Assembly (NCBI RefSeq): GCF_000993825.1
Contig: NZ_CP011114.1
Span: 2,542,001-2,606,000, forward strand
Source of the DNA: Paenibacillus durus ATCC 35681
Lineage (GTDB): Bacteria; Bacillota; Bacilli; Paenibacillales; Paenibacillaceae
Length of the DNA: 64,000 nucleotides
Direction of reading: 5' to 3'
Shown here: positions 1 through 14,835 of the stretch, in pieces
How positions within the stretch are numbered: the stretch's first letter is position 1
How the letters are laid out: each line of letters begins with the position of its first letter
Position numbers and translations under genes: made by a program
The notes under the pieces: model-generated
Told to the model about the DNA's origin: nothing
The model's input: the letters and a program-made list of their open reading frames with translations, nothing else
Databases searched by the model: none

Positions 1-544
1 CGGGAACCGCGCCTTCCCGCACCTCCGCCGTAACCGAGGGATGGGACAGAATCGCCTTGATTTCGGAAGCGAAAATAAAACTATGTCCGACCATCGTATA
101 ATACAATGGCTTTACTCCAAGCCGGTCCCTTGCCATGAACAGCGTTTCGTTTCGTTCGTCCCACAGCGCAAAGGAGAACATGCCGTTAAATTTAAGCACG
201 CAGTCCGGGCCGTATTCCTCATAGGCGTGAACAACAACCTCCGTATCGCAGTTGGTGCGAAAGGTATGGCCTTGCTGGATCAGCTCGCGCCGCAGCTCCG
301 GAAAATTAAATATCTCGCCGTTATAGGTCAGCCAGATGCTCCCGTCTTCATTCGTCATCGGCTGCCCGCCGTGCGCCAGGTCGATAATCGACAGCCGCGT
401 ATGGCCGAGACCGATTCGATTGCCGATATGCACCCCTTCCCCATCCGGTCCCCGGTGGCGAAGCAGACCAATCATGTTCCGCAGCTCCGCTTCGAGGACT
501 TGGTGTTCCGCGTCCGTGTTAACAATGCCGCATATTCCGCACAT
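1..544 (-). CDS. AsnB-like glutamine amidotransferase, N-terminal part (runs off left edge)
   Basis: About 181 residues are visible. The protein starts MCGICGIV, so after Met removal Cys2 is the N-terminal nucleophile of a class II glutaminase domain. The arrangement RHRGPDGEG, then RLSIIDL, then YNGEIFNF is typical of asparagine synthase B-type enzymes, which release ammonia from glutamine and pass it to an ATP-dependent synthetase domain (outside the window here). A GGGAGG ribosome site sits just before the ATG. It is the last visible gene of the etfB-etfA-ACP-ligase-PP-loop-KamA operon, 27 bases after the KamA-type gene. In this setting it probably amidates a pathway intermediate or supplies ammonia rather than making asparagine; that is inference. 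The synthetase domain cannot be inspected. Confidence 0.85.
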   Translation of the reverse strand, partial: MCGICGIVNTDAEHQVLEAELRNMIGLLRHRGPDGEGVHIGNRIGLGHTRLSIIDLAHGGQPMTNEDGSIWLTYNGEIFNFPELRRELIQQGHTFRTNCDTEVVVHAYEEYGPDCVLKFNGMFSFALWDERNETLFMARDRLGVKPLYYTMVGHSFIFASEIKAILSHPSVTAEVREGAVP

Positions 545-571
545 ACTTCCTCCCCGCGCCTCGACAGGCGA

Positions 572-2425
572 TTAGAAATAATACCAGATGGTCTTGTAAT
601 CCCGGATATCCTCGCCCAGCGCTTCAAGCTTTGCCAAATAATTGCCGATAGGCTCATCCTTGAACAAAAAGGTGTTAACCGGAGCCATGTACTTCTCCCA
701 TGGATAAAATTCATAGATTCGGCTCCCGTCCTTGTGGATCATAACGATATCGTGATCCTGCCAGGCGTTCAGATCGTTTTTGCCCAGTGTAGGCACGTTG
801 AATACCGGCTTGTCCGTCCTTACCGTCCCAGGGAGCAGGCGCGCCTCTTCCTTCTGCTCTTGAAGCAGCCGGGCAACGGGAACTTTAAAATTCGCCGTCT
901 CTTCCTTGCCTTTCAGGTTAAATAAGTAATAGGGAGTGACGCCGATAGACCGAAGCTGCTCCCTTAGAAAGCTCGTCTCAAACTTCCGGCTGTTGTAAAG
1001 CGTGAATACCTGCTGATTGTAGATGTCGATTCCGGCTCTCTTCAGTTTAAGCGCGGCCTCCGCCGTTTCTTCGGATATCTCGTAGGCATGCTGAAAATGA
1101 GTCATCATCGTTATCGTTTTAAAGGGCGGCTTATGATAGGCGCATAGAATGCGCAGCAGCTCCTCGTCAAATCGCATGGGCATCGTCACCAGCGTTCGGG
1201 TCCCGATCCGGATTCGCCGGATATGCTCGATCTCGTACAAATTTCGGATGACATATTCCAGCATTTCGTTGTTAACGGTAAGCGGGTCGCCGCCCGTAAT
1301 CAGCACTTCGCTGATCGAGGGATTGGACCGGAACCAGTCGAATGCTTTCTCCAAGTCCTGAAAAGCAGGCTGCGCCTCGTCTTCTTCCTCACCCTCAAGC
1401 TCCCAATTCCGCTGACAGTACACGCAGATTTGGGGACACCACAAATAGGGCTTGACGATCGCGATCATCGCGTACCTTCGGGTTACGGATTGTTCAGGAG
1501 ACGTATCCCGCTCATGCATGAAATCCAGCGATTCCCTTCCGCCGGAACAAGCCTTGAGATAAGCATCAAGGTAAATCCGGTTCGGTATGACTTGCGCCCG
1601 CAAGCTGCGGTCCCGGCCGGACAAGGACGATTCCATGTCCATCAAGGACAAATAATAGGGCGTTATCCCGAACGGCAGCCGGTGCTGCGTTGTTACCCGA
1701 ATCATCTCCTGCTCTTCATCCGTCAAGGAGATAATTTCGGCAATATCCTCCAAGCGTTGAAACCGGTGCCGCAGATGCCACTTGTAATCGGACCAATCGC
1801 TTTCTTCCGCACCCAAATACCGCAGAATTCGCGCGCGCATCGCGTCTCTGCCCTGTTTCACCGCCGGGTGCAGCCCTGTCATATATTCGTTTTTGCGGAT
1901 AAACTCCTCATATTGATTCGCCTTCCCGTCCAGATGGACCGACCTCGCCTCCGCCGCTTCCCGGCCTTCCAGATGGACGAATTCGGGCACCTCCCGCTTA
2001 CAGATTCCCGACTTGGAGTAAATGCCCGACAGGCCGATCACACCTTTGAACAGATGAGTCATTTCCGCCAGAAACGCGTCGCTGACATCCGGCCAGTCCT
2101 CCTGCTTCCAATGCTCCGTCGCCATTTCCCAAATGACAGCAAGACAACTATGCCCCGTCTTCCGTTCATTTCCTTCGGAGATCAGATTGCGGAATACCGC
2201 GATACAGCTTCTTACATTCTTTTGTTCAAGCGGATGCAGCGGACAATCGCTCTTGAGAACGTTCTGTTCGCATTGGTTCAAATAATCAAACAGCCGCCCC
2301 CGAGCTTCCGCCACAGTCTCGCTCATCACCAAGAGCCGCAAAATGTCTGGATTGGCATCCAGCCATTCGGTTAATTTTTCACGGGAAGCCATGCTACCAC
2401 CACACGCTTTCGGCCCTGTATTCAT
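572..2425 (-). CDS. KamA-family radical SAM protein (lysine/glutamate 2,3-aminomutase-like) with long N-terminal extension
   Basis: 617 residues. The radical SAM cluster motif CxxxCxxC is C330, C334, C337, followed by GGDP at 378-381. A KamA-like entry segment (WSDYKWHLRHRF, then LTDEEQE) begins near residue 211, so about 205 N-terminal residues are extra compared with the usual 420-470 aa aminomutases. Known KamA enzymes move an amino group from C2 to C3 using PLP and SAM. The glycine-rich GGGGK loop that carries the PLP lysine in lysine 2,3-aminomutase is not seen; K549 in a VPTLGKND segment is in about the right place. Substrate, and even PLP use, are therefore open. Its start overlaps the upstream stop as ATGA. 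An internal ATG at 2392, with a GGTGG-like site, is an alternative start. Confidence 0.8.
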   Translation of the reverse strand: MNTGPKACGGSMASREKLTEWLDANPDILRLLVMSETVAEARGRLFDYLNQCEQNVLKSDCPLHPLEQKNVRSCIAVFRNLISEGNERKTGHSCLAVIWEMATEHWKQEDWPDVSDAFLAEMTHLFKGVIGLSGIYSKSGICKREVPEFVHLEGREAAEARSVHLDGKANQYEEFIRKNEYMTGLHPAVKQGRDAMRARILRYLGAEESDWSDYKWHLRHRFQRLEDIAEIISLTDEEQEMIRVTTQHRLPFGITPYYLSLMDMESSLSGRDRSLRAQVIPNRIYLDAYLKACSGGRESLDFMHERDTSPEQSVTRRYAMIAIVKPYLWCPQICVYCQRNWELEGEEEDEAQPAFQDLEKAFDWFRSNPSISEVLITGGDPLTVNNEMLEYVIRNLYEIEHIRRIRIGTRTLVTMPMRFDEELLRILCAYHKPPFKTITMMTHFQHAYEISEETAEAALKLKRAGIDIYNQQVFTLYNSRKFETSFLREQLRSIGVTPYYLFNLKGKEETANFKVPVARLLQEQKEEARLLPGTVRTDKPVFNVPTLGKNDLNAWQDHDIVMIHKDGSRIYEFYPWEKYMAPVNTFLFKDEPIGNYLAKLEALGEDIRDYKTIWYYF

Positions 2426-3426
2426 GAAGACATCAGGCTCTTCTCCACTTCTTCCGACAGGGTTAATGTCGTCTCCGCTGGATCTTCAACTCGTCTCAAA
2501 GCTTCTTCTCTGGTAATTATCCCCTGCTGCACCAATAAACTCATTTCATAATCATAGGGGTGGAAGCCGTAGTGCTCCAAATGCTTCACAATTCCCAGCG
2601 AATTCAAGCGGCAGTTCGATGAATTGGGGTCTACATCCTCCGGTCTGACCCATCCGAGCGAGGAAATCGTGTCGTAAATGTTACGCTCGTCGTAGCCGAT
2701 TAGCGGAAATGCGTTGACGGTGTACGGAAACGGACGGGTTCGATATTCCTCTTTGTTCAGCATGACATAGTCATAAACGTCTTCGCCCAGACGATCCGCA
2801 AGCGGCCGGAACAGATTTTTCCTTAATTCGTAAGGTATTTTATTGTCCTGAAAAATGATCTCGTTCTCCGACTGGATCAATTGGCCGGGACTGTTGCCCA
2901 GCATGACGAGCGGTATCCCTTTCTCTATGGCGACCCTCAGCGACATGGTAGTCACCATACGGATGCATGAGATGCAAATTCCGCTGCCGAAACCGGTCAG
3001 ATGGGGCGGATAGATGCCAGGCTCCGAGCTGCCGAGAAAAATTTTGTTCATGATATCCGCCCGCGGCTTTACGATCAGATGGTCCACATCCATCGCATTC
3101 AGCACCGTCCGCATATTGCGGAAAGAGGCTTCGGACATATAGCCGTTATCAAAAGTACAGGCCAGCAGCGATAAGCCGTACTTCTCCTTCAAGGTATGAA
3201 TCAGGAATGTGCTGTCCTTCCCACCGCTGAATGCCACCAACGCATCGTATCTGCGCTTGACGGACTTGCAGTCCTCCAGCAGTTCCGATAGCCTGCCGCG
3301 TAATTTGTCATAAGAAGGCAGGGCGGATCTGTTCTCCGCTTGCCTGCACAGGGAGCACACTCCATCCGAATCGAACGTAATTCCGGGATAGGTCTCGGGC
3401 AGAACGCAACGTGTACAACGCTTCAC
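2422..3426 (-). CDS. PP-loop (adenine nucleotide alpha-hydrolase) amidotransferase, WbpG/PseA-like
   Basis: 334 residues from a GTG start that overlaps the ligase stop (GTGA) and lies 9 bases after GGAGG. The N-terminus has two CxxC pairs (C4/C7 and C24/C27) around VLPETYPGITFD, the layout of N-acetyl sugar amidotransferases of the WbpG/PseA type. The PP-loop SGGKDS is at 67-72, and more cysteines (CISC) follow near residue 150. Such enzymes adenylate a carbonyl oxygen and replace it with nitrogen or sulfur. WbpG/PseA proteins use ammonia from a HisH-type glutaminase; none is visible, but an AsnB-like gene lies two genes downstream. PP-loop relatives also act on carrier-bound acyl groups in closthioamide biosynthesis, so an ACP-bound amide is a possible substrate (inference). 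Confidence 0.75.
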   Translation of the reverse strand: MKRCTRCVLPETYPGITFDSDGVCSLCRQAENRSALPSYDKLRGRLSELLEDCKSVKRRYDALVAFSGGKDSTFLIHTLKEKYGLSLLACTFDNGYMSEASFRNMRTVLNAMDVDHLIVKPRADIMNKIFLGSSEPGIYPPHLTGFGSGICISCIRMVTTMSLRVAIEKGIPLVMLGNSPGQLIQSENEIIFQDNKIPYELRKNLFRPLADRLGEDVYDYVMLNKEEYRTRPFPYTVNAFPLIGYDERNIYDTISSLGWVRPEDVDPNSSNCRLNSLGIVKHLEHYGFHPYDYEMSLLVQQGIITREEALRRVEDPAETTLTLSEEVEKSLMSS

Positions 3427-4925
3427 AACGACATTCCTCCTGCCGGCTCCCTCAACAGGGACCGATTGATTTTTAATGTGGCCGTCTTGGGCAAACTGCC
3501 GCAAAATTCAACCTCATATGGAATCATGTAATGCGGCAAATTCCGTTTGCAGTGCAAGATGACATCCTGCGCCTCAAGAGACGCGCCCTCCTCCCGGACA
3601 ATGACCGCTTTGATGCGGACGTTGCCGTTGACGTCCGTTATGCCAACCGCGGCGGCTTCCCGTATCCCGGGCATCCGGCAAAGGCCATCCTCGATTTCTT
3701 CAGGACTGACGCGGATTCCCATCAATTTGAGCATCATGTCCTTACGGCCCTCAATGTAAAGAAAGCCCTCTTCATCCAGCCGCCCCAAATCGCCCGTATA
3801 CAGCCTTCCGTTCCTGAATGTCTCCGCCGTCAGCTTGGGAAGATTCCAGTAACCGGGTGAAACGAAGGCCCCCTGATGGGTAATTTCCCCGATCTCTCCG
3901 GGCCGGCAGGGCTCGCCTTCCGGATTGACGATTTCGATTTCCACTCCCGGCAGCGGCTTGCCCGCCGAGGGGAATTTCCGGTCAAAGTCTTCCGGCAAGA
4001 GACAGGTGGAGCGGAACGCCTCGGTTGTACCGTACATCATGTAGAACCGGGTCTCGGGTAGCACAGACCTAAGCTTCTTTATTTCGTTTGGGGGAAAAGC
4101 TTCCCCGATAATAGATATATATCTGAGATTCGGATAATGGTGCCCGGCAAAAGGAGAATGTCTTTGCAGCAGCATCCTCCAAAAAGAAGGAACGGCATGG
4201 AATCCGGTGATTCGTTCTGTCAACAAGGTATCGACAATATCTTTGGGGAAGACAGAATCTTGCAAGATCAGTGTTGCTCCGGCAAATACGGAAGTGAACA
4301 ACTGGCTTAAAGCTCCGTCAAACGAAAATGGGGTAACGCTGATAATCCGGTCGCTGGCATGGTTCCCCAGCAGACCTGCCGACACGACTGTCGATTCATA
4401 CAAAATACGATGGGTAACGACGATGCCTTTCGGTCTCCCGGTGGAACCTGAGGTATACAAAATGGCAGCGGGATCATCTTCCAGGGCCGGGACAGGCTCA
4501 ATCTTCCCCGGATTACCGCCGGTACTATACTCCGCCAGCGGCAGCGAAATCACATTCGGAACGGTTCCGGCAAGCTCCGCATTAAGGAACGTTCCAGTTT
4601 TGCCTTCATGCAAAAACAGCAGCTTGATTCCGCAATCGGCCGCAATATGACGCAGCTGCTCTTCTTTAAAGTAGGGATTGATATGGACAAAGACGGCGCC
4701 AATTCTCATAATGGCGAATAAAGCGATGATTTCATCCAAGCATTTAGAAGAAAAAATGCCGACACGATCACCCTTTCCAATCCCCTTGGATACAAGCAAG
4801 CCCATGACAGCGTCAACCGCCGCTTCCGCTTCCATGTAGGTAAGCCCCTGGCCCTTGCAGCGAAAGGCCTCCTTGTCCGGCTGCTCAATTGCCGCTTTGG
4901 ACAGCAATTCATGAATGAACATCAT
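3423..4925 (-). CDS. AMP-forming acyl/aminoacyl ligase (free-standing adenylation enzyme)
   Basis: 500 residues, full length for the ANL superfamily. The P-loop-like A3 motif LYTSGSTGRPKG lies at about 157-168, YTGDLGRLDEEGFLYIEGR near residue 380, and the C-terminal catalytic lysine in TATLKINRS near 487. It should activate a carboxylic or amino acid as an acyl-AMP and load it on the phosphopantetheine arm of a carrier. The adjacent ACP gene, overlapping by ATGA, is the obvious partner. No condensation or thioesterase domain is fused, so it is a stand-alone loading enzyme. The substrate cannot be read with confidence from the sequence. Confidence 0.88.
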   Translation of the reverse strand: MMFIHELLSKAAIEQPDKEAFRCKGQGLTYMEAEAAVDAVMGLLVSKGIGKGDRVGIFSSKCLDEIIALFAIMRIGAVFVHINPYFKEEQLRHIAADCGIKLLFLHEGKTGTFLNAELAGTVPNVISLPLAEYSTGGNPGKIEPVPALEDDPAAILYTSGSTGRPKGIVVTHRILYESTVVSAGLLGNHASDRIISVTPFSFDGALSQLFTSVFAGATLILQDSVFPKDIVDTLLTERITGFHAVPSFWRMLLQRHSPFAGHHYPNLRYISIIGEAFPPNEIKKLRSVLPETRFYMMYGTTEAFRSTCLLPEDFDRKFPSAGKPLPGVEIEIVNPEGEPCRPGEIGEITHQGAFVSPGYWNLPKLTAETFRNGRLYTGDLGRLDEEGFLYIEGRKDMMLKLMGIRVSPEEIEDGLCRMPGIREAAAVGITDVNGNVRIKAVIVREEGASLEAQDVILHCKRNLPHYMIPYEVEFCGSLPKTATLKINRSLLREPAGGMSL

Positions 4926-5170
4926 TGGCGCACTCCAAGGTTCCGCTTCCTTTCCACGAGTCCCACCAAGCCGTCGATCGTACCGAAGCTCTCCATATCC
5001 ACGTCTTCTTCGGATATCTCAAGCCCAAAGGTATTCTCCAGGAACGCCAGCAAGTCAAGTACATCCAGTGAGGTTAAGATTCCTTGCTCAAATAAGTTGC
5101 TTGCATGATCGGACACCGGTTCATTGATCAAATCCTGTATAAAACCCGCAATAAGTTCTCTTTCGTTCAT
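4922..5170 (-). CDS. Free-standing acyl carrier protein
   Basis: 82 residues, the size of a single acyl or peptidyl carrier domain. Ser34 in GILTSLDVLDL is the expected 4'-phosphopantetheine attachment site. The canonical preceding Asp is replaced by Thr (LTSL rather than LDSL), as in some amino-acid carrier proteins. Acidic residues are abundant, as usual. The ATG follows AGAGGAGG at good spacing. The stop overlaps the ligase start, implying translational coupling and a 1:1 supply of carrier and loader. It lies 36 bases after etfA, which suggests that a flavin-linked oxidation acts on the carrier-bound group (inference). Confidence 0.88.
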   Translation of the reverse strand: MNERELIAGFIQDLINEPVSDHASNLFEQGILTSLDVLDLLAFLENTFGLEISEEDVDMESFGTIDGLVGLVERKRNLGVRQ

Positions 5171-5206
5171 GATAAATGCCTCCTCTAGTCTTAAATAAGA
5201 TCCTTA

Positions 5207-6463
5207 TCACTGCCCGTTAGCAACAGTTCTGAACGTTCCCGACTCTATGCAATGGATAAATTCCGGTATGACCCGGAACAAATCTCCGACAATACCATAG
5301 TCGGCATATTGAAATATTGGCGCGCCGGCATCGGAATTTATCGCAATAATCATCTCCGACTTATCCATGCCGACCGTATGCTGGAGCGCGCCCGAAATGC
5401 CGCATGCGATATAAAGACTCGGCTTTACGATAACGCCCGTTTGACCGATTTGTCTTGCAGCTTCCAGCCATCCTTCATCTACCAGCGGACGGGTAGCGCC
5501 AATCTCGGCCCCAATCGTCCCTGCCAGCTTGTGAATCAGCGGCAGATTCGCAGCCGCACCGATCCCCCGGCCGACTGCGACGATTGAATCAGCCTGTCCG
5601 AGCTCGAAACCCTTTCCATCCCGCAATATCCTCTTCCCCAGCGTATATACAGACTGCATCACAGGATATTCATCACTGAAATCGAGAATCATTCCTGGGG
5701 GATGCCCGGAATGATCCGCTCTCTGGAAGGCGCGTTCTTTCAGCGTCGCCATCTGGGGAGAATGATGCGGAATGACGATCCGGGCCAGAACGCCGCCGCC
5801 AAGCGCAGGACGGGTAATAATCAACCGGCGGGTCTCCGGCTCCAAGCTTAGATCGGTGCAATCCGCGCACAATCCGGTGTCCAGCTTTGCTGCGATTCGC
5901 GGAAACAGGGAACGGCCGTGTTCCGTTGCTCCGCCGAGGAATATATCCGGCTGTCTTCTCGCCAGCACATCGGCGGTTATGCGGGTAAGAACATCTTCCG
6001 CATAGGAAGGAAGCCAGTCCAAGTCAAGCAGCCATACCTCGTGGGCACCGCAGCGCATCACTTCCCCGGCAAGCTGACGGCTGCCGTTTCCGGCTATGAT
6101 CGCCGCTATTTTGAAGGAATCCGACTCTCCGGTGAGCGACCTGGCGGCCCCGATTGCCTCATAGGACGATTCGTCGATAACTCCGCCGGTGTGTTCGATA
6201 TAAACACATATCACAGTGGGCTGACGTTCGCTGACCTCATCTGCCGCTGCGGGGTTATTCGCCGCTGTCTCCTTGTCCTCTTCCGGCCACTCGGCCGAAT
6301 CCTGGCGTATCGCCTTGTTTGGACATAATGATGCGCAAAATCCGCACTCCATGCATCGCTCATCGTCGATGACTGCTACGGTTCCGTTAACGGATATGGC
6401 CTCGACCGGGCACATGCTCCTGCATATTCCGCACCCGCTGCAGTCGGTCTCGTGAATGATCAA
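5207..6463 (-). CDS. etfA: Electron transfer flavoprotein alpha subunit with N-terminal 2[4Fe-4S] ferredoxin domain
   Basis: 418 residues, about 90 longer than an ordinary EtfA because of an N-terminal ferredoxin. Two full cluster motifs are visible: C8, C11, C14, C18-Pro and C37, C40, C43, C47-Pro. The C-terminal FAD domain is typical, with VAVGRGIG and then ACGISGALQH and INSDAGAPIFQYADYG. EtfAB normally passes electrons from acyl-CoA dehydrogenases to a quinone reductase; ferredoxin-fused forms occur in anaerobic or bifurcating settings and could accept low-potential electrons. Start is TTG, 7 bases after AGGAGG and 3 bases after the etfB stop. No dehydrogenase partner is visible in the window; one may lie beyond the left edge. 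Confidence 0.9.
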   Translation of the reverse strand: MIIHETDCSGCGICRSMCPVEAISVNGTVAVIDDERCMECGFCASLCPNKAIRQDSAEWPEEDKETAANNPAAADEVSERQPTVICVYIEHTGGVIDESSYEAIGAARSLTGESDSFKIAAIIAGNGSRQLAGEVMRCGAHEVWLLDLDWLPSYAEDVLTRITADVLARRQPDIFLGGATEHGRSLFPRIAAKLDTGLCADCTDLSLEPETRRLIITRPALGGGVLARIVIPHHSPQMATLKERAFQRADHSGHPPGMILDFSDEYPVMQSVYTLGKRILRDGKGFELGQADSIVAVGRGIGAAANLPLIHKLAGTIGAEIGATRPLVDEGWLEAARQIGQTGVIVKPSLYIACGISGALQHTVGMDKSEMIIAINSDAGAPIFQYADYGIVGDLFRVIPEFIHCIESGTFRTVANGQ

Positions 6464-6466
6464 GCT

Positions 6467-7273
6467 CTATCCTCCTCCCTCCTGACCTTTGGCTCGGGTT
6501 AACCCGAGCCGGGATACCAACCGGGAAACGCAGGCCGTATCCTCTTCAAAAATGCTGAGTTCAGCCTCTTGGCGTTCGCCGGCTTTCACCAATCGGGTCA
6601 TCTCCAGCACTCGCGTCGGCGATCCCTTTAATCCCATTCTTCCCGGGTCAGCGGCCAAGTGTTCCTCCGTCCAGATCGTTATCGTCTCCCTTCTCGCCCG
6701 GAGCGTCCCCCGTATCGTCGGCAGCCTTGGACGGTTGCTATGCTTGCGCACACTGAACAAAGCGGGGAGCGGCAGAACATACTCAAGCTCACAGTCGCCG
6801 CTTTCCTTGATAGCGGATATCTCCGGACTCCCGTCCTCATACCGGACATCGATCACTCTCGTCAAATGGGGAATGCCTAAATACTCGGCTACTTCGGGAC
6901 CGACTTGTCCCGTCTCCCCGTCCGATGATTGCTCTCCCGTAAAAATCAAGTCATACGGAGAAAGCTTCCGAATCGATGCAGCCAAAGTATAGGAAGTCGC
7001 CAGCGTGTCCGCTCCCGCAAAGACCGGCGAGGACAGGAGTATGGCCCTGTCGGCTCCCAAACCTAAAGCTTCCTTCAACGGTCCGGCGCATTGAGCCGGT
7101 CCCATTGAAATGCAGGTCACCCTTCCCCCGCAGGCCTCTTTGAGTTTAAGTGCCGCTTCCAAGGCAAACATATCGTTCAGGTTATTGCGCAATTCGAACT
7201 GATCCCTGCCTGCCAAGTTGTCGGAAGTATTTTCCATAACCGGAATCTGCTTGAGGCATACAACAATCTCCAA
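6467..7273 (-). CDS. etfB: Electron transfer flavoprotein beta subunit
   Basis: 268 residues, normal for EtfB. The opening EIVVCLKQIPV and the segments LNDMFALEAALKLKE and FTGEQSSDGETGQVGP are classic for the AMP/FAD-binding beta subunit that pairs with EtfA. Start is TTG at 7273 with GAGGTGA about 7 bases upstream; an in-frame TGA directly precedes it, so no longer form is possible. It is the first gene of the operon and is preceded by about 220 AT-rich bases that must hold the promoter. Its presence with an ACP and ligase, and without a fatty acid oxidation gene, points to a dedicated electron carrier for the pathway (inference). Confidence 0.9.
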   Translation of the reverse strand: MEIVVCLKQIPVMENTSDNLAGRDQFELRNNLNDMFALEAALKLKEACGGRVTCISMGPAQCAGPLKEALGLGADRAILLSSPVFAGADTLATSYTLAASIRKLSPYDLIFTGEQSSDGETGQVGPEVAEYLGIPHLTRVIDVRYEDGSPEISAIKESGDCELEYVLPLPALFSVRKHSNRPRLPTIRGTLRARRETITIWTEEHLAADPGRMGLKGSPTRVLEMTRLVKAGERQEAELSIFEEDTACVSRLVSRLGLTRAKGQEGGG

Positions 7274-7496
7274 TCATTTCACCTCACTTTGGCTTGGTTT
7301 GCAGTCGAAAATTCACGCTTTCAAAACAATGGCTTTTTCGTCTTTTAATTTAAATTTATGGAATTTAACAACATTTTTTCCAACGATATTAGGATAATCC
7401 GAATACATGTTATGCCCTATGAAAAATGTCACCTTTTTATATTTTTGTATATTTATTGGATATTATAGAGGATTTAGATTATTTGCGATGCAAAGA
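7274..7496 (-). promoter_or_regulatory. AT-rich leader and promoter region of the etfB operon
   Basis: About 220 bases with no open reading frame of note. It is far more AT-rich than the flanking genes and must carry the promoter of the left-end operon. I see no convincing sigma-A -35/-10 pair. Short CATA elements at about 7410-7430 (minus strand) loosely resemble sporulation-type -10 boxes but lack a proper partner. No riboswitch fold was recognised. Confidence 0.45.
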
Positions 7497-7551
7497 AAGC
7501 CAAATAAGCTGCACCGGTACATAAGTACGGAAGCAGCTCATTTGGCTTTTT
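7497..7551 (-). terminator. Rho-independent terminator of miaB-ricA
   Basis: Inverted repeat of about 17 bases per arm (AAGCCAAATAAGCTGC against GCAGCTCATTTGGCTT) with an 18-20 base loop, T-rich on both sides, so it may act in both directions. It lies 78 bases after the ricA stop and separates that operon from the etfB operon. Confidence 0.85.
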
Positions 7552-7628
7552 GTCAGTAGCTATAATCAGTAGCTATAAAATGTTGTCATTGTCATTTGCC
7601 ATACCGTCAGGGGCAGACAGGTCCTATC

Positions 7629-8060
7629 TTATTCGCCGCATCTCGAAGGCGGAGCTTCGCTGCCGGCCTCGACATTGATTTTTTCCGAAACGGTGTCCCG
7701 GATGACGGAAACGACCAGCTGCAGCAGGTAATTGATATCGGTCTGGCTCTGCTGGAATTCGGTGACCAGCGGGATGCTGTCGATCTCGTCCTGAAGCTCA
7801 TTAATTTCGCCCTCGATCTTGGCCACCATCTCTTTATTTCCGAAGCTTTCGAAGGCGACAATCTCCTTCTGCTTCTTCTTCATCTGGGCAATCAATCCCT
7901 GAACACGTTCATGATTCCGGATTTTCTCCTCCGCCTGCTGAAACAGCTTAACCTCTTCACTGGTCGAAATCAGCGACGCGAGCTCCTTAGCCTTGGCCAT
8001 AATGTCGTCACGTACGATGAGATCGCGGGTATCGTAGGACATCATCCCGTAATTATTCAC
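7629..8060 (-). CDS. ricA: RicA (YmcA), YlbF-family RNA-maturation regulator
   Basis: 143 residues from a GTG at 8060 preceded by GAGGAG with 7-base spacing; an ATG at 8081 exists but has a poor ribosome site. It is a helical, coiled-coil-rich protein of the YlbF/YmcA family, about the length of B. subtilis YmcA, with a cysteine near the C-terminus (SRCGE) like the Fe-S ligand of that protein. RicA works with RicF and RicT to direct RNase Y-dependent mRNA processing and affects competence, biofilm and sporulation. It follows miaB by 48 bases, as in B. subtilis, and its partner enzyme RNase Y is encoded about 8 kb away. Confidence 0.88.
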   Translation of the reverse strand: MNNYGMMSYDTRDLIVRDDIMAKAKELASLISTSEEVKLFQQAEEKIRNHERVQGLIAQMKKKQKEIVAFESFGNKEMVAKIEGEINELQDEIDSIPLVTEFQQSQTDINYLLQLVVSVIRDTVSEKINVEAGSEAPPSRCGE

Positions 8061-8108
8061 ACGGCCTTTCTCCTCTGTCATACAGGGTCGCTCACTTTCG
8101 TTATGGAG

Positions 8109-9692
8109 TTAATGGACGCCGGCGGCGGCGGCCACGTAATCGCCTTTGATATACCAGGTCTTCGTATCGGTGATCCGCACCTTGATAAAGCTGCCGATAA
8201 GCTCCTTCGGTCCTTCAAAATGAACCAGCTTGTTGCTGCGGGTCCGTCCGGACAGGACGGCGGCGTTATTTTTGCTCTCTCCTTCGACCAGCACCTCAAC
8301 CGTCTGTCCAAGCATCCGGTCATTGCCGATCCGGCTCTGATCGCTGATCAGCTCGTTCAAGCGCCGCAGCCGGTCGCTCTTGACCTCTGCCGGCACATTG
8401 TCCTCCATAGCGGCCGCCGGAGTTCCTTCACGAGGCGAATAAATGAACGTGTAGGCCATGTCGAAGCCAACCTCGCGCACGAGCGCCAGCGTTTCCTCGA
8501 ACTGCTCCTCCGTCTCGCCGGGGAAACCGACGATAATATCCGTGGTCAGCACAAGGTCCTTGACCGATGCTTTCAGCTTGCCGACGAGTTTCAGGAAGGT
8601 CTCCCGGCTGTACTTGCGGCTCATTTTCTTCAGAATGGCATTGCTGCCGGACTGAACGGGCAGATGGATGCTCTCCATCAGATTGCCGCCCTTCCCCAGC
8701 ACTTCCACAAGCTTATCGTCAAAATCGCGCGGGTGGGAAGTCATGAACCGGATACGCGGGATGTCGATCTTCCGCAGGTCATCCATCAAATCGCCAAACG
8801 TGTAATCGATATTGCCAAAATCCTTGCCGTAAGCGTTCACGTTCTGCCCGAGCAGCGTCACTTCCTTGAAGCCCTGGCGGGCCAGTTCGCGAAGCTCCGC
8901 AATCACGTCCTCGGGACGGCGGCTTCGTTCCTTGCCCCGGGTGTATGGGACGATGCAGTAGGTACAGAATTTGTCGCAGCCGTACATGATGTTGACCCAG
9001 GCGCGCATACCCTCCCTTTTTTTCGGCAGGTTCTCGATAATGTCGCCTTCCTTGGACCAGACCTCCACGACCAGTTCCTTGCTGAACATCGCTTCCTTAA
9101 TCAATGCAGGCAGGCGGTGGATATTATGCGTTCCGAATATCATATCAACAAATCCGTGCTTCGACATGATCCGGCTTACGACGCCCTCTTCCTGGGACAT
9201 GCAGCCGCAGACGCCGAGCAAGAGACCCGGTTTTTCCGTCTTCAGATGCTTGAGGTGGCCGAGCTCCCCGAATACCTTATCCTCGGCGTTCTCCCGGATG
9301 GCGCAAGTATTGAGCAGAATAATATCTGCCTGGGTCCGGTCCTCCGTGCTCCGGTAGCCCATCTGCTCCAGCAGACCTTTCATTGTCTCGGTATCATGCT
9401 CATTCATTTGGCAGCCGTAGGTCGTGATGGAATACAATTTGCCTTCGCCAAAAGCTTTCATGTCCTCGGGAATGGCAAAATCGTAGTGGACCTGAATGTC
9501 TTCCTTGCCGCGCCGCTTGCCTTCCTTATAGTCGGGCTGGCTGTTCACCTGAATCGTTCTTCCCTTGATGCGGTATGTGGTCTTGCCCTCTTCCTCGCTG
9601 ATTACCTTCGCTCCGCTAAAATCGAAGTATTTGGAGTAATCCTTGGCACCCTTGCCGGATTTTAAGTCCGGTGAGCTGTTCTCCTTGTTCAT
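8109..9692 (-). CDS. miaB: tRNA-2-methylthio-N6-dimethylallyladenosine synthase MiaB
   Basis: 527 residues, in the 500-530 aa range of Bacillales MiaB with its extra N-terminal tail. The UPF0004 domain begins at [11 protein letters not shown] with further cysteines in [11 protein letters not shown] and GVCGCM; the radical SAM motif is CDKFCTYC followed by [13 protein letters not shown]; a TRAM domain closes the protein. It adds methylthio to i6A37 of tRNAs using two Fe-S clusters. ATG start with AGAGG about 10 bases upstream. It forms an operon with ricA. Confidence 0.95.
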
Positions 9693-9747
9693 GCTGTCAC
9701 ATCCTCTATTCGAAAACGATGAATTTTGGTTTCGCTTGCAGTTAAAA

Positions 9748-9756
9748 ATTATAACA
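9748..9756 (-). promoter_or_regulatory. Extended -10 promoter of miaB
   Basis: Minus-strand TGTTATAAT, a perfect extended -10 element, about 56 bases before the miaB ATG. No good -35 is seen, which an extended -10 promoter can tolerate. Confidence 0.55.
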
Positions 9757-9821
9757 TAGTGCCATGGAATATATCCATATGCTCAAATTTTAGGTGTTCT
9801 GCGAGGGCGGGGGCCATCGGA

Positions 9822-10295
9822 TTATTTAACCAGCTCCGTAAACGTCGCGGATACCGCTTCGGCCAGCCTGCCGGGAGGGAGTTCCATCTGCATGCCTATT
9901 TTGCCGGCGCTCACCGCTATTTTTTCCAGCATTTCGGCGCTTTGGTCGATGAATGTGGGGTAATGTTTTTTCATACCGACCGGTGAGCACCCGCCCCGGA
10001 TATATCCGGTCCATTGTTGCAGATCCTTCACGGGCAGCATTTCAATCTTCTTCACTCCAGCGGCCTTGGCCGCTTTTTTCAGATCAAGCTCTTCCGCAAC
10101 CGGGATGACAAAGACATACAGATTGCTGCCGCTGTGCGAGACCAGTGTCTTAAACACGCTCTCCGGCGGTCTTCCGACCTTCTCCGCAACGGCCGTTCCG
10201 TGAATTTGGCCATCCTCATTGTCATAGGAAAGGATTTCATAGGGTATTTTATGGGCATCCAAGATCCTCAGTGCATTCGTTTTGCCAACCTGCAT
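9822..10295 (-). CDS. ybaK: YbaK-type Cys-tRNA(Pro)/aminoacyl-tRNA deacylase
   Basis: 157 residues, normal for YbaK/EbsC proteins. Recognisable segments are TNALRILDAHKIPYE at the start, HGTAVAEKVGRPPESVFKTL with the conserved lysine, and GGCSPVGMKK near residue 100. These enzymes hydrolyse mischarged Cys-tRNA(Pro) in trans. ATG at 10295 with GGAGGT about 12 bases upstream, slightly far; another ATG nearer the site is out of frame. Monocistronic: it is divergent from the phospholipase-like gene. Confidence 0.9.
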   Translation of the reverse strand: MQVGKTNALRILDAHKIPYEILSYDNEDGQIHGTAVAEKVGRPPESVFKTLVSHSGSNLYVFVIPVAEELDLKKAAKAAGVKKIEMLPVKDLQQWTGYIRGGCSPVGMKKHYPTFIDQSAEMLEKIAVSAGKIGMQMELPPGRLAEAVSATFTELVK

Positions 10296-10494
10296 AGCTG
10301 CTCATTGACCTCCGTTCGCTAAATCTCATATTTTTATTATACTTTTTAGCATAGGGAATTCCCAGACCTACGGGGAGCGGCTCAGACTTCGGCAAAATTG
10401 ACATTCGCACTGATTTATAAGGCAGCTTATTAACACGTGTCTAATGATCCGGATATATACTAATGTCAGAAAGCAGTTGAAAGGAGCGAGACCC

Positions 10495-11475
10495 TTGCCT
10501 AACCTTTGGATGCATATCGAATACGGACGGCAGCTCAAAAATGATTTGCAATCATTCTTCCCCTTCGGGGGCGGTTCTTCCGAGCATGCTCTCCTCTACC
10601 AACTGGGCTGCCAGGGTCCGGATTTACTGTACTACCACAGCTTTCTTCCCTGGAGCCGTGATATTGGCGCGGCCCGGCTCAGTGACCTGCTGCACAGCCA
10701 GAGCTGCGGCGGAGTGTTGATGGCGTTCTGGAATAAGATTCTCCGGCTTCCGCTTCAGGAACGGGGACCGGCGGCGGCTTATTTTACGGGCTTCCTGACT
10801 CATCATCTGCTGGACCGGGGCCTCCATCCTTATATTAATTGGAAATCAGGTTACAAGCACAGGGATCATCAACGGTTCGAGGTGGCTCTGGATACGGTGT
10901 TCATCAAACATCTGAACGGCCGGAACACATGGAAAATCCCCGGATGGAAAGAGATCGATGCCGGACCGGCTCTCCCCGCCAGCATTGTAGATATTTTGCA
11001 TGAAACGGCTTGTACATTTTATCCTGAAGCGGCGAATTTCCCGAAATCAGGCTGGCAGCAGGCGTACCGTGATATGGTCAAAGCCCAAAAACTCCTCTAC
11101 GACCCGCATGGTTGGAAGAAAAAATTGATCTACGGGCCAAACTCCGCTCTGTTCTACCGCAAGCTAACGGCAGCCGAGGAAAAGTTGGATTTCCTGAATG
11201 AGCGAAATGCCCCATGGAGGCACTCAGCGCTGTATTCGGAGGTCAGAACGGACAGTGTACCGCAGCTGTGGGAGCAGGCGCTGGTGGAGGGACGAACGGT
11301 AATAAAGGCCTTGGCAGCCTGGATGCTGGCGGATTCCCGCAAAGAAGCGGAAGTCATGCGCGAACGGTTCCGGCTTACTCTCGGTGACCGGTCCTACGAC
11401 ACGGGAAAGGATTGCGGTTCCAATCTGGTCAACCAGTATGCTGAACCGATCTGGGAAACAGCCGCCGTTAACTGA
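10495..11475 (+). CDS. Zinc-dependent phospholipase C family protein
   Basis: The only plus-strand gene. 326 residues from TTG at 10495, with AAGGAG 8 bases upstream; an ATG at 10444 would add 17 residues but has no ribosome site. Histidine-rich segments WMHIEYGRQL, GCQGPDLLYYHSFLPW, FLTHHLLDRGLHPYINW and HRDHQRFEVALD fit the metal sites of the zinc-dependent phospholipase C fold. No signal peptide is visible, unlike secreted phospholipases, so a cytoplasmic lipid or phosphodiester role is possible. The substrate is unknown. Confidence 0.75.
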   Translation: MPNLWMHIEYGRQLKNDLQSFFPFGGGSSEHALLYQLGCQGPDLLYYHSFLPWSRDIGAARLSDLLHSQSCGGVLMAFWNKILRLPLQERGPAAAYFTGFLTHHLLDRGLHPYINWKSGYKHRDHQRFEVALDTVFIKHLNGRNTWKIPGWKEIDAGPALPASIVDILHETACTFYPEAANFPKSGWQQAYRDMVKAQKLLYDPHGWKKKLIYGPNSALFYRKLTAAEEKLDFLNERNAPWRHSALYSEVRTDSVPQLWEQALVEGRTVIKALAAWMLADSRKEAEVMRERFRLTLGDRSYDTGKDCGSNLVNQYAEPIWETAAVN

Positions 11476-11501
11476 TAGGGGATAATATACAAAATATAGG
11501 C

Positions 11502-11546
11502 AAACAGCGAAGCTGCGGTCCTGTGAGGACGAGCTTCGCTGTTTTT
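11502..11546 (+). terminator. Bidirectional terminator between the phospholipase-like gene and UMF1 gene
   Basis: 13-base arms AAACAGCGAAGCT / AGCTTCGCTGTTT around a 17-base spacer, followed by TTTTT on the plus strand. It serves the convergent genes on both sides. Confidence 0.85.
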
Positions 11547-11586
11547 ACTAGTAGAGAGTCTATTTGTACACATCGTTCGGCTAGGG

Positions 11587-12906
11587 TTAAGTAACAAGGC
11601 GTTCCGTTTCAGTGGAAAGCGGCTCTCCGTTGTCTGTAAATCTGCCCTGCAGGCTGTCGTTCTTCCCGCGCTCCACATCCACCTTCAACAACATCGCTAT
11701 GCCCAGTCCGAAGAACAGCAGCAGAGAGAGTATCCCCATCCGGGAGCTGCCGGTAAGCTGGCCGACCAGACCGAAGAAGAAGGGCCCGAAAATCGAAGAA
11801 AATTTGCTCGTAATGTTGACAAAGCCGAACAGCTCGCCTGTACGCCCCATGGGCATCAAATCGCTCAGCAATGATCGCGAAATGGATTGGCTTCCGCCTT
11901 GGACAAGGCCGACCATGACTGCAAGCAAATAAAAATGCAAAGCTTGGGTCATCCAGTAGCCAAGGGCCACAATGAGCACATACATGAACAACGAAGCCAA
12001 CAGCGTACGTTTCGGGCCGAACCGTACCGCCGCTTTTCCGAGCAGAAGGGTGCTGGGGAAGCCGACAAACTGTGTAATGAGAAGGGCCAGTATGAGATGG
12101 CTCGTCCCGATGCCAATCGTCGTTCCATAGATGGTCGCCATCAATATGATGGTATTGATCCCGTCATTGTAGAACCAAAAGGCTGCAATCAGCTTAAATA
12201 GCTGAGGGTAGCGCCGGATATCCCGGTAAGCCCCCGTAATGCGCTTAAAGCCGGAGCGGACATATCCGCCCGCGGTTAGCCCCGAAGTCTGGCGCTCCAA
12301 ATTCGGCACCCGGCGCATGACCGGCAGCGCAAACAGCAGCCACCACACCCCCACAGTGACAAAAGACCAGCGCGTACCCGCCAGCCCGTCGCTTATTCCG
12401 AACAGCGAAGGCTTCTGAATCATAAGCAAATTCAGCGCAAGCAGAATGCCGCCGCCCACATAACCGGCTGCATATCCTTTGGACGAGATTTCGTCCCTTC
12501 GTCCGGGGGGAACGAGATCGGGCAGCATGGAGTCGTAAAAAGCATTGCCCCCTGAAAATCCGAGCGTTGACAATACAAGGAAAGCCGAAGCCATCAGCCA
12601 ATCTCCTCTTTCCACCAAAGCGAAGCAAGAAGTTGACACGATGCCAAGCAGTGTAAAGTATGTTAAGAAGGTTGTCTTCCGGCCTGAAAGATCCGAAATT
12701 GCGCCAAGCAGCGGCGACAATATGGCAACCAGCGCCATTCCGATGGCATGAGTATACGCCAAATAGGACGCCGCCGTTGTCTTATCCAATCCGTCAGCCG
12801 CAACCGAACTGTAAAATACAGGCAGAACAGCCGCCAACACTGTTGTCGCATAAGCGGAATTGGCCCAGTCATACATAATCCACGCCCGAACAGCAGATTT
12901 ATTCAC
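11587..12906 (-). CDS. UMF1-family MFS transporter
   Basis: 439 residues from GTG at 12906 (AAAGGTGA 6 bases upstream; the longer TTG start is unlikely). The start WIMYDWANSAYATTV and the loop LSPLLGAISDLSGRK are hallmarks of the UMF1 (Atg22-like) branch of the major facilitator superfamily. Many hydrophobic segments, consistent with about 12 membrane helices. The transported compound is not known for most bacterial members. Single-gene unit, flanked by terminators on both sides. Confidence 0.88.
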   Translation of the reverse strand: MNKSAVRAWIMYDWANSAYATTVLAAVLPVFYSSVAADGLDKTTAASYLAYTHAIGMALVAILSPLLGAISDLSGRKTTFLTYFTLLGIVSTSCFALVERGDWLMASAFLVLSTLGFSGGNAFYDSMLPDLVPPGRRDEISSKGYAAGYVGGGILLALNLLMIQKPSLFGISDGLAGTRWSFVTVGVWWLLFALPVMRRVPNLERQTSGLTAGGYVRSGFKRITGAYRDIRRYPQLFKLIAAFWFYNDGINTIILMATIYGTTIGIGTSHLILALLITQFVGFPSTLLLGKAAVRFGPKRTLLASLFMYVLIVALGYWMTQALHFYLLAVMVGLVQGGSQSISRSLLSDLMPMGRTGELFGFVNITSKFSSIFGPFFFGLVGQLTGSSRMGILSLLLFFGLGIAMLLKVDVERGKNDSLQGRFTDNGEPLSTETERLVT

Positions 12907-13030
12907 GTCTTCACCTTTCCTCTCCAAAGCCCCCTGCCCTGTCAATCAAGCGGCTAGGAGCCGGCATCTTTGCTTCTATTATACCGAATATTTGGAGAAG
13001 GAATGTTCAGTAAATGTTCACGGAGTATAA

Positions 13031-13072
13031 AATGATAAAAAGCGGAGGATTCCTCCCCCGCTTTTTATCATT
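13031..13072 (-). terminator. Terminator after the pduL-like gene
   Basis: Near-perfect 15-base arms (AATGATAAAAAGCGG / CCGCTTTTTATCATT) with a GC-rich apex, 34 bases past the pduL stop. T-rich on both strands. Confidence 0.85.
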
Positions 13073-13105
13073 CATTATATGGATAATAGCCTGCTCAGGC
13101 TTAGC

Positions 13106-13678
13106 TTAGTCAACGATTTCAGCCGTGTCGCCGTTGCTTGCTCCTGCAGCGTTCGCTTCGTCCGTATCGATATGCATATCGAGCGCAAAATTTTCAGACA
13201 CGCGGGCAATGACGTTCTCCAGAACGAGGCCGCGTTCTCCGCCAAGGCGGACTTTGAGCAGCTGCTTGTCGGCAATGCCCCATTTCGCGGCATCGGAGGT
13301 ATGGAAATGAATGTGACGGGCCGCCACAATAACACCCTTCTCCAGTACAACTTCGCCTGCCGGTCCTTTCAGCGTAAGGCCAGGCGTTCCTTCAATGCTG
13401 CCGGATTCGCGTACAGGCGCCTTTACGCCAATTGCGAAAGCATCCGTACGGGAAATTTCAACCTGCGAGGCCGGACGTACCGGTCCCAAAATTCTGACTT
13501 TATCGAATTTGCCTTTGCTGCCGATTACCGCAACGGTTTCGTTCGCAGCGAATTGTCCAGGTTGGGAGAGCGGTTTGAATTCAGTCAGCTGGTAGCCGGG
13601 TCCGAACAGCGCCTCCACATGTTCTTGCGTTAGGTGAATATGTCTAGCCGACACACCTACAGGTACTGTCTTACTCAT
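13106..13678 (-). CDS. pduL: PduL-type phosphate propanoyltransferase
   Basis: 190 residues from ATG at 13678, with AAGGAGTG about 10 bases upstream; a GTG 12 bases earlier would overlap that site. The two zinc-site motifs of PduL are present: SARHIHL near the start and AARHIHFHT near residue 125. PduL converts acyl-CoA and phosphate to acyl phosphate, independently of the Pta/EutD fold. No microcompartment shell, aldehyde dehydrogenase or diol dehydratase gene lies nearby, and no encapsulation peptide precedes the catalytic core, so it is likely a cytosolic phosphotransacylase in general acetate/propionate metabolism. Confidence 0.9.
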   Translation of the reverse strand: MSKTVPVGVSARHIHLTQEHVEALFGPGYQLTEFKPLSQPGQFAANETVAVIGSKGKFDKVRILGPVRPASQVEISRTDAFAIGVKAPVRESGSIEGTPGLTLKGPAGEVVLEKGVIVAARHIHFHTSDAAKWGIADKQLLKVRLGGERGLVLENVIARVSENFALDMHIDTDEANAAGASNGDTAEIVD

Positions 13679-13755
13679 TACTTCAGTCACTCCTTGTAGT
13701 TTTCTCTATTATCTGTACAAGCCAAGGAACATTATACAACTATTTAACCAAAAAT

Positions 13756-13789
13756 AAAAAGGAACCTGCTCATCTTCAGGCTCCTTTTT
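13756..13789 (-). terminator. Terminator after the dipeptidase gene
   Basis: AAAAAGGAACCTG / CAGGCTCCTTTTT hairpin with an 8-base loop, 48 bases past the dipeptidase stop. Confidence 0.8.
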
Positions 13790-13836
13790 GGGAATCGTTC
13801 GCATTTTCGTCAATTCATTTTGAGACGGATGTCTCC

Positions 13837-14835
13837 TTATTCAGCCTTCGGCGCAGAGGGCAGGTTGCTCGCCAGATAACTTACGGCATTCCCGTATAGC
13901 CATCCCTTAACCGATTCTTCGGAGTAATGACGCAGCAGCAGCTCCGCTAGAGCCGGATAGCGGCCCGGATGCTCCAAACCTTTAATCCAGGAGTCGATGC
14001 CGTCAAAATCGGAGCCGAACATCAGATGCTTTTCTCCTCCAAGAGTACAAATATGCTCGATATGTCTTAGCAGATCATCCGGCACAGCCTCCCCGCTATC
14101 CGTCACGAACCACGGCACAAAAGTAAGCCCCATACGCCCTTCCACGCTGATAACTGCCCTAATCTGCTCATCGGTTAAATTGCGCGGATGGGCGCAGATC
14201 GCCTTTGCATTAGAGTGGGACGCAATAAATGGCCGTTGAGAAAGCTCCGCCAGCTCCCAGAATCCGGCCTCCGACAGATGCGAGACGTCTAGCAGCATGC
14301 CACTTCCGTTGCACCACTCGACAAGCTCCCGGCCTTTTTCCGTAAAACCTCCGTTTCGCTTCTCAAGCACACCATCCGCCGCCCAGTTGGCGTAATTCCA
14401 AGTTAGTCCCAAAAAGCGTACGCCAAGCTCAAAGATCAGCTCCGCATAGAACAGATTTCCCTCCAAGCCGTCAGCTCCTTCAAGCGACAACATTCCCCAA
14501 CAGGGACCTCCCCCCAAAGGATCAGCTAAACCGGCAGCCTCCTCCTTCCAGTGCAGCGGCCGAAGCCCTCCCCTGTCCACCACTTTGCTCCGGTAAAGTT
14601 CAATTTGCTTCAGCACATGCTCAAACCGGGGTTTCCCCCACTTCTGTGACAAATAAATGGCAAAGCACTGCATCCGCAAACCGCCGACCCGCAGTCTCTC
14701 TCCGGTCACATCCAGCCGTCCATCAGCCATAAAATCAATGGAGGGATTCTCCAGCATCTTGCTCAGCGCATCACAATGAAAATCCACTACCGGGAAATGA
14801 ACTTTTCCCTGTCCCTGCGGTTCTACTGGATTCAT
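13837..14835 (-). CDS. Membrane-dipeptidase-type (M19) zinc dipeptidase
   Basis: 332 residues from ATG at 14835, 8 bases after AAAGGAGG. The M19 metal ligands can be followed: DFHCD near the N-terminus, the bridging glutamate in MLSLEGADGLEG, DVSHLSE and SHSNAKAI histidines, and FGSDFDGID. These enzymes cleave dipeptides, including D-amino-acid-containing ones. No signal peptide, so it is cytoplasmic. It sits downstream of spoVS behind a terminator and may be read through from it; a cell-wall dipeptide recycling role during sporulation is possible but unproven. Confidence 0.9.
   Translation of the reverse strand: MNPVEPQGQGKVHFPVVDFHCDALSKMLENPSIDFMADGRLDVTGERLRVGGLRMQCFAIYLSQKWGKPRFEHVLKQIELYRSKVVDRGGLRPLHWKEEAAGLADPLGGGPCWGMLSLEGADGLEGNLFYAELIFELGVRFLGLTWNYANWAADGVLEKRNGGFTEKGRELVEWCNGSGMLLDVSHLSEAGFWELAELSQRPFIASHSNAKAICAHPRNLTDEQIRAVISVEGRMGLTFVPWFVTDSGEAVPDDLLRHIEHICTLGGEKHLMFGSDFDGIDSWIKGLEHPGRYPALAELLLRHYSEESVKGWLYGNAVSYLASNLPSAPKAE

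Follow-up and report, generated by a model that had tools for sequence, protein, structure and literature searches.

A 15-gene Paenibacillus NRPS cluster that may build its own glutamate-derived starter unit on a free-standing carrier protein

The window analyzed here, a 64,000-nucleotide stretch of Paenibacillus durus ATCC 35681, begins with seven tightly packed open reading frames on the minus strand, whose Pfam and NCBIfam family assignments agree with the families first named (Table 1). The initial annotation had described seven same-strand genes with ATGA/GTGA overlaps, and this was confirmed by the reading frames, the family matches and the sequence itself, in which four-base overlaps join ACP to ligase (ATGA), ligase to PP-loop gene (GTGA) and PP-loop gene to KamA (ATGA). 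The gene run continues on the same strand for about 14.5 kb past the left edge of the window and includes NRPS modules; the seven window genes are the upstream part of a 15-gene cluster. The AsnB-like gene, which crosses that edge, encodes 590 aa as a whole and ends about 1.2 kb beyond it (low end L002 18772). We placed the start of the PP-loop gene at the GTG at 3426, given the starts of most aligned homologues and the disorder of the first 23 residues in the model. Judged by spacing and strand, the gene run may form a single transcript. Promoter-like and terminator-like sites at positions 7000-8200 were near chance level, and no Rfam elements were found in positions 1-14000 of the window.

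Table 1. Genes of the cluster, in window positions or, beyond the left edge, in positions of locus L002.
Feature	Position	Strand	Family match or remark
EtfB	6467-7273	-	PF01012
EtfA with N-terminal ferredoxin domain	5207-6463	-	PF00766, PF01012, PF00037
Free-standing ACP	4922-5170	-	PF00550
AMP-forming ligase	3423-4925	-	PF00501
PP-loop (AANH superfamily) protein	2422-3426	-	Longest ORF (360 aa) up to 3504
KamA-family radical SAM enzyme	572-2425	-	N-terminal extension of ~190 residues
AsnB-like enzyme, N-terminal part	1-544	-	GATase_7
Acyl-CoA dehydrogenase	L002 17585-18775, outside window	-	ORF listing, Pfam, NCBIfam
NRPS1	L002 14385-17588, outside window	-	Condensation, AMP-binding, PP-binding
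NRPS2	L002 11093-14335, outside window	-	Condensation, AMP-binding, PP-binding
Thioesterase	L002 10164-11063, outside window	-	Thioesterase (Pfam)
Activase	L002 9334-10104, outside window	-	Above TIGR00241 cut-off
MATE exporter	L002 7921-9306, outside window	-	MatE (Pfam)
HGD-D subunit, first	L002 6776-7885, outside window	-	Longest ORF to 8197; internal start
HGD-D subunit, second	L002 5537-6763, outside window	-	Pfam/NCBIfam

Two NRPS proteins, each of C-A-T architecture, accompanied by a thioesterase and a MATE exporter, mark the locus as an NRPS cluster. The initial annotation had seen no NRPS module, which holds within the window but not for the 9 kb beyond it, where both proteins lie. 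Its guess that an acyl-ACP dehydrogenase and an export gene were missing was borne out by the acyl-CoA dehydrogenase and the exporter past the left edge. NRPS2 has further modules in some species. Read by hand, the adenylation residues are D-V-S-N-F-A-V-I-Y in NRPS1 and D-A-F-W-L-G-M-T-F in NRPS2, and only the latter resemble a code for Val.

Unlinked genes in most relatives would have refuted the first reading, but the genes are linked in every cluster followed. All 15 families are co-located in each of the 12 Paenibacillus clusters followed, and their identical order in all 12 indicates that the arrangement is not due to chance. The KamA is rare in the order, with 13 of 392 genomes carrying it; in the thirteenth, a contig end cuts the locus. 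A cassette of five of these genes (ACP, ligase, PP-loop, AsnB and dehydrogenase) recurs at 50-64% in a polysaccharide locus of Zixibacteriota, next to an AAC(3)-type acyltransferase. Nine PP-loop loci outside Paenibacillus all have an ACP nearby, and seven have an amide-forming enzyme (four AsnB, three NAD-synthetase-like); an exosortase gene was confirmed in two. Searches of plasmids returned three distant matches (28-29%), two in genes annotated as NRPS-type and one without a listed gene, while a search for a Brevibacillus cluster in 39 genomes from the family to which genome G1050 belongs returned only an already-known NRPS-embedded domain.

We sought the likely substrate in the KamA-like protein, which is 617 aa long. 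Its K505 aligns with D293 of lysine 2,3-aminomutase (LAM), and K505, N543 (the LAM D293/D330 sites) and the PLP lysine K549 match all 12 curated glutamate 2,3-aminomutases aligned, these being the top-scoring among 73 genomes over the cut-off. The Lys/Asn pair and the PLP lysine are also kept in the KamA of 10/10 clusters aligned. Since the pair is that of the curated glutamate enzymes, the KamA-like enzyme probably makes beta-glutamate, as a glutamate 2,3-aminomutase, although its score against TIGR04368 (231 bits) is below the cut-off of 650.

The ACP serine motif TSLD is present in 11/11 aligned sequences. For the ligase, which we propose loads the starter acid on the ACP, the best NCBIfam match was TIGR03098 (444 bits, below the cut-off of 592). 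Its pocket motifs FDGALSQL and FRST do not vary among 10 Paenibacillus clusters, nor between these and the Zixibacteriota cassette; six more distant ligases differ in them. A pocket arginine was considered as a mark of a dicarboxylate substrate and dropped, as the same Arg occurs in distant ligases. The AsnB-like enzyme retains Cys1 and SGGLDS in 11/11 aligned sequences and is predicted to be a glutamine-dependent amide-forming enzyme; the best NCBIfam match of the part inside the window was TIGR03108, below cut-off.

The PP-loop protein had been called an amidotransferase and had been thought to nitrogenate the unit together with AsnB. Numbered along its longest ORF (360 aa), it carries D97/S98 and a Cys triad, C177, C180 and C298. 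The triad is kept in all 35 aligned PP-loop sequences and in all 19 cluster or cassette copies. CtaC, the thioamide synthetase of closthioamide, has D77/S78 and a triad of C154, C157 and C284, and the excerpted text reports that it requires this CxxC...C triad (PMC6772006). By contrast, both full-length proteins examined that score above the WbuX cut-off lack the cysteines at all three sites. Given a CtaC-type triad that two true WbuX-family proteins lack, the label "PP-loop amidotransferase" is probably a misnomer, and nitrogenation by this protein is probably not its role, the triad being of the Fe-S, sulfur-inserting type.

The best-surviving alternative retains the NRPS cluster and the beta-glutamate starter but has the PP-loop enzyme use ammonia instead of sulfide, as WbuX-type enzymes do, so that the starter would be a beta-amino amidine. 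The best NCBIfam match of the protein is WbuX (TIGR03573), although its 152 bits are below the cut-off of 203.2; its nearest fold is the N-acetyl sugar amidotransferase 8wex, its relatives occur in polysaccharide-type loci, and AsnB could supply the ammonia. However, no HisH/HisF-like partner was recognized by Pfam among the 15 genes, and on account of the Cys triad we place formation of an amidine second and regard it as rather unlikely.

The electron-transfer genes point to anaerobic-type redox chemistry. Against solved structures, EtfB scored 155 bits with LctB, 152 with Bcd-Etf and 141 with CarD, versus about 54 with human-type Etf. EtfA, which is CarE-like and has two Fer4 stretches in its N-terminal ferredoxin domain, matched CarE from the caffeyl-CoA reductase-Etf complex best among solved relatives (260 bits over residues 4-405, versus 135 for human-type). 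The acyl-CoA dehydrogenase was closest to 5ol2 (352 bits). Acryloyl-CoA reductase models in NCBIfam were best for EtfA and the dehydrogenase and second best for EtfB, all below cut-offs. The EtfB motif DGETGQVGP was found in 10/10 clusters aligned, and in the YEGTSEVQ motif of the dehydrogenase an Asp replaces the Glu of Bcd in 11/11. Among solved structures all three proteins are closest to the Bcd/Car/Lct complexes, not to human-type Etf, and they may form a bifurcating complex. The earlier outline of a dedicated pathway, with a KamA-rearranged, ACP-carried amino acid and an Etf-linked dehydrogenase, is the supported part of the first interpretation.

The dehydratase-type genes allow another reading, patterned on the reduction of lactate or leucine: the dehydratase system and the Etf/dehydrogenase would work jointly, first dehydrating a 2-hydroxyacyl-ACP and then reducing it; the starter would be a 2-hydroxy acid derivative and KamA would serve another residue. 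Three cysteines are kept in HgdA (9/9) and in HgdB (all eight readable rows), and activase motifs in 9/9 aligned. The closest proteins to the two HGD-D subunits, activase, dehydrogenase and Etf are of the dehydratase/benzoyl-CoA reductase and acryloyl-CoA reductase types, although the second subunit is very divergent (best PDB E 2e-4). Yet no CoA-transferase or 2-hydroxyacid dehydrogenase was found by Pfam among the 15 genes, there is a single ACP and a single ligase, and the Zixibacteriota cassette keeps the dehydrogenase with no dehydratase found in the 20 kb fetched around it. We consider a 2-hydroxy acid starter improbable. A QueC- or ArtA-like PP-loop enzyme dehydrating the AsnB-made amide to a nitrile seems more improbable still.

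That the operon serves energy metabolism, Stickland-type or for osmolyte synthesis, instead of making a natural product is barely credible and was rejected because NRPS genes are present: such gene families do typically belong to the anaerobic metabolism of amino acids, and long KamA relatives (43-49%) are widespread, lacking the cassette in the flanks fetched, but all 12 clusters contain NRPS genes, thioesterase and exporter, and the KamA of the cluster is rare. Among those relatives, 71 loci (L044-L114) had no relative of the PP-loop protein, ligase or ACP at E 1e-4 in the flanks fetched, many of them short, and cmscan of 19 of the 71 for signs of an osmolyte role returned only 5S rRNA and tRNA. 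A search of 49 genomes, which covered 50 of the 72 loci from L043 to L114, found a PP-loop relative at E 1e-40 in two of them.

Gene content, order, conservation and catalytic motifs are directly established; from them we infer chemistry, substrate and step order. The cluster looks built for a short peptide starting with a glutamate-derived, probably sulfur-modified unit. The KamA-like enzyme would make beta-glutamate from glutamate, and the AMP-ligase would put it onto the ACP; AsnB would turn the free carboxylate into a carboxamide, and the Fe-S PP-loop enzyme would exchange the amide oxygen for sulfur, giving a thioamide. Served by its own ferredoxin-type Etf, the acyl-CoA dehydrogenase would alter the oxidation state of the chain on the ACP, and a low-potential one-electron step would fall to the two 2-hydroxyacyl-dehydratase-type subunits and their ATP-driven activase. 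NRPS1 would add one amino acid and NRPS2 then a Val/Ile-like residue, after which the thioesterase would free the product and the MATE pump export it. We give this reading as a whole, an NRPS cluster of 15 genes building its own beta-glutamate thioamide starter on a free ACP, an even chance of being correct.

The recurrence of the five-gene core and the ligase pocket motif in the Zixibacteriota polysaccharide locus suggests that the acyl unit may be common to peptides and surface sugars. A tentative and somewhat doubtful extension is that the five genes form a transferable module making ACP-bound thioamidated beta-glutamate, used as an NRPS starter in Paenibacillus and as a polysaccharide acyl decoration in Zixibacteriota. 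Peptides bearing a primary-thioamide beta-amino acid would then be made by oxygen-sensitive, ferredoxin-driven chemistry in culturable Paenibacillus. If the cluster works as proposed, it would name a new NRPS starter unit along with the enzymes for making it, mean that culturable Paenibacillus use anaerobic-type redox enzymes (an Etf-linked acyl reductase and a 2-hydroxyacyl dehydratase) to make peptides, and link the acyl chemistry of peptides and polysaccharides. It would also suggest that some "N-acetyl sugar amidotransferase" proteins are Fe-S sulfur-inserting enzymes.

The initial annotation could match the genes to no described pathway, and we likewise found none, nor a described product, in open-licence literature. 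The cluster is not described in the excerpted texts of PMC6772006, PMC13185837, PMC9337991 and PMC1224877; a similar one may already be drawn in Figure 3B of PMC6772006, as the legend names rSAM. Its parts nevertheless resemble known systems. With Eam (TIGR04368) the KamA-like protein shares the Lys/Asn substrate-site pair, PLP lysine and radical SAM motif, on a body of lysine 2,3-aminomutase fold, but it differs in total length, N-terminal extension and sub-threshold score. Acryloyl-CoA reductase, caffeyl-CoA reductase, Bcd-Etf and lactate dehydrogenase-Etf complexes supply the nearest solved relatives of all three Etf/dehydrogenase subunits, and CarE likewise places the ferredoxin domain on EtfA; in contrast to Bcd-Etf-type complexes, the Paenibacillus genes sit among NRPS genes with a free ACP. 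HadBC-HadI and BzdN (2-hydroxyacyl-CoA dehydratase/benzoyl-CoA reductase) also combine two HGD-D subunits, three Cys each, with an activase, whereas here the second subunit has diverged and the genes sit in a peptide cluster in which no CoA-transferase was recognized.

Exosortase-associated loci, whose models (TIGR03098, TIGR03108) best match the ligase and the AsnB-like part, hold the same grouping of ACP, ligase, amide former and PP-loop protein, with no NRPS or KamA seen alongside; there the unit probably decorates polysaccharide. WbuX/PseA-type amidotransferases (TIGR03573, 8wex) have the overall fold and N-terminal Cys-rich ribbon in common with the PP-loop protein, and polysaccharide-type loci with its relatives, but it scores below their cut-off and bears the triad that two true members lack. 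Closthioamide offers a close parallel for carrier-bound modification: its PP-loop enzyme adjoins carrier proteins and loading enzymes, as in Paenibacillus, although its synthesis is NRPS-independent and no aminomutase, AsnB, Etf/dehydrogenase or dehydratase system is among the genes that the text names (PMC6772006). According to the same excerpts, thiotemplated-enzyme genes lie near ~75% of 100 CtaC homologues, many of which are near NRPSs and most in anaerobes (PMC6772006). Compared by published residue positions, CtaC and the Paenibacillus protein share a PP-loop, a CxxC and a third Cys at similar spacing.

All seven minus-strand ORFs described in the initial annotation are present with the domains expected of them, and its 4-base overlaps are seen in the sequence (ACP/ligase ATGA, ligase/PP-loop GTGA, PP-loop/KamA ATGA). 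For the PP-loop gene, the GTG at 3426 is the most likely start: most aligned relatives begin there, and the structure model shows disorder over residues 1-23 of the longer ORF. The window covers bases 2542001-2606000 of a 5.58 Mb genome in a single contig, and a further 20 kb was read leftwards (L002; window coordinate = L002 minus 20000). ORF listing and profile matches over these 20 kb revealed that same-strand genes continue left of the window, with additional 4-base overlaps at AsnB/dehydrogenase (GTGA) and dehydrogenase/NRPS1 (ATGA). Counted from EtfB through the final HGD-D gene, the cluster spans 21.7 kb.

Genes of the cluster reaching or lying beyond the left edge of the window
Gene	Length	Location	Strand
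AsnB-like	590 aa	extends past left edge	same
Acyl-CoA dehydrogenase		left of window	same
NRPS1 (C-A-T)		left of window	same
NRPS2 (C-A-T)		left of window	same
Thioesterase		left of window	same
Activase, BcrA/HgdC type		left of window	same
MATE exporter		left of window	same
Two HGD-D subunits		left of window	same

The resulting 15-gene cluster is conserved. KamA was found at E <= 1e-60 in 13 of 392 genomes of the order, and all 15 families were present in 12/12 clusters followed (the window's genome and 11 others). In the remaining genome, which was left out, a contig end leaves only a KamA fragment and AsnB. In three of the 12 (G075, G144, G049) the fetched stretch ends within the exporter, and upstream genes of G108 and G216 were read in the named records that are their probable counterparts, L041 and L040. 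Among named records, the cluster is carried by P. ehimensis, P. tyrfis (three entries), P. elgii, P. oleatilyticus and P. sp. MZ04-78.2; the contig of a further record, P. zanthoxyli, stops within AsnB. We infer P. durus, P. tepidiphilus, P. tianmuensis and P. sp. FSL H8-0048 as further carriers. NRPS1 is a single module in 10/10 clusters with ORFs listed, while NRPS2 is 1080 aa long at its shortest (one module) and reaches 3413 aa, with three adenylation domains, in P. tepidiphilus; adenylation-domain substrate codes were read manually. In the window's genome (L002:11093-17588), the NRPS1 and NRPS2 C domains appear, by eye in translation, near-identical over ~480 residues, like the outcome of recent duplication or gene conversion; the A domains differ. 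Dehydratase genes run activase-MATE-HgdB-HgdA in the window's genome (L002:5537-10104) and G382, and HgdB-HgdA-activase-MATE in the remaining clusters read (compared: L019, L023, L171, L172).

Five of these genes recur, order kept, on a Zixibacteriota chromosome (ACP 52%, ligase 50%, PP-loop 62%, AsnB 58%, dehydrogenase 64%), adjoining an AAC(3)-family acyltransferase, a hexapeptide transferase and a polysaccharide deacetylase. In its pocket motif the Zixibacteriota ligase matches the Paenibacillus ones exactly (11/11 sequences), and six distant ligases differ, so both ligases probably load the same acid. No KamA adjoins this cassette; one (48%) lies ~90 kb away.

Nine PP-loop loci outside Paenibacillus were examined (L125, L126, L164-L170). 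An ACP is nearby in all nine (tblastn or Pfam; some matches weak), and a full ligase in seven, with one partial and one missing, both at contig ends. Seven carry an amide former (AsnB-like in four, an NAD-synthetase domain in three), the neighbour that the PP-loop enzyme would require in a route from amide to thioamide (or to amidine or nitrile); no amide former was found in L168 or L169. Exosortase genes occur in L169 and L170, and others of the nine, read from translations, appear to be polysaccharide loci. L164-L170 and L126 derive from the phylum of the Zixibacteriota MAG, the class of a Desulfobacteraceae MAG and a Latescibacterota MAG, with ACP, ligase, AsnB/NAD-synthetase-like and PP-loop genes grouped.

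PP-loop domains of the same type are also fused into NRPS proteins, in L127:8477-12136 (G1050), L142 (G099), L129:9415-17463 (Roseovarius pelagicus plasmid) and a Streptomyces sp. NBC_01216 plasmid match. The Cys triad is kept in the three aligned copies (L127, L142, L129). In L127 the domain comes after most of the A domain. Such fused domains may carry out in-module tailoring. The Roseovarius and Pseudohalocynthiibacter plasmids (L129, L130) have identical protein accessions across a polysaccharide region, where ACP, adenylation and acyl-CoA dehydrogenase genes adjoin the PP-loop match.

KamA reached E <= 1e-150 in 5 of the other 397 phylum-sample genomes, with identity <= 46% in all. For 11 of the first 35 relatives of KamA, a listed PP-loop relative appears to come from the same genome; linkage therefore probably extends to Brevibacillus, a Spirochaetales MAG and metagenomes. 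Long KamA proteins of a large 43-49% family (L044-L114) occur in Bacteroidales, Neomarinimicrobiota, Euryarchaeota and others, and the cassette was not found in the flanks examined. A Desulfobacteraceae KamA (57%, L043:7676-9514) lies, by its neighbours' translations, amid apparent polysaccharide genes, with two AsnB-type genes and MBOAT-like and FemAB-like proteins.

No published product for the cluster was found in the open-licence full texts searched. A survey of clusters with homologues of CtaC, the closthioamide thioamide synthetase, names rSAM in a figure legend (PMC6772006) and may already include a relative of this cluster.

The closest solved structures for EtfB, EtfA and the dehydrogenase are the Lct, Car and Bcd complexes. 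NCBIfam acryloyl-CoA reductase models rank top for EtfA and the dehydrogenase and second for EtfB, all below curated cut-offs. Complexes of the Lct, Car and Bcd type bifurcate electrons, so the Etf/dehydrogenase set could be a low-potential electron source for KamA and the activase. In alignment, three cysteines are kept in both HGD-D subunits and two Cys motifs in the activase. Bcd has a Glu in YEGTSEVQ, the catalytic base, whereas the cluster dehydrogenase has Asp there in 11/11 aligned sequences.
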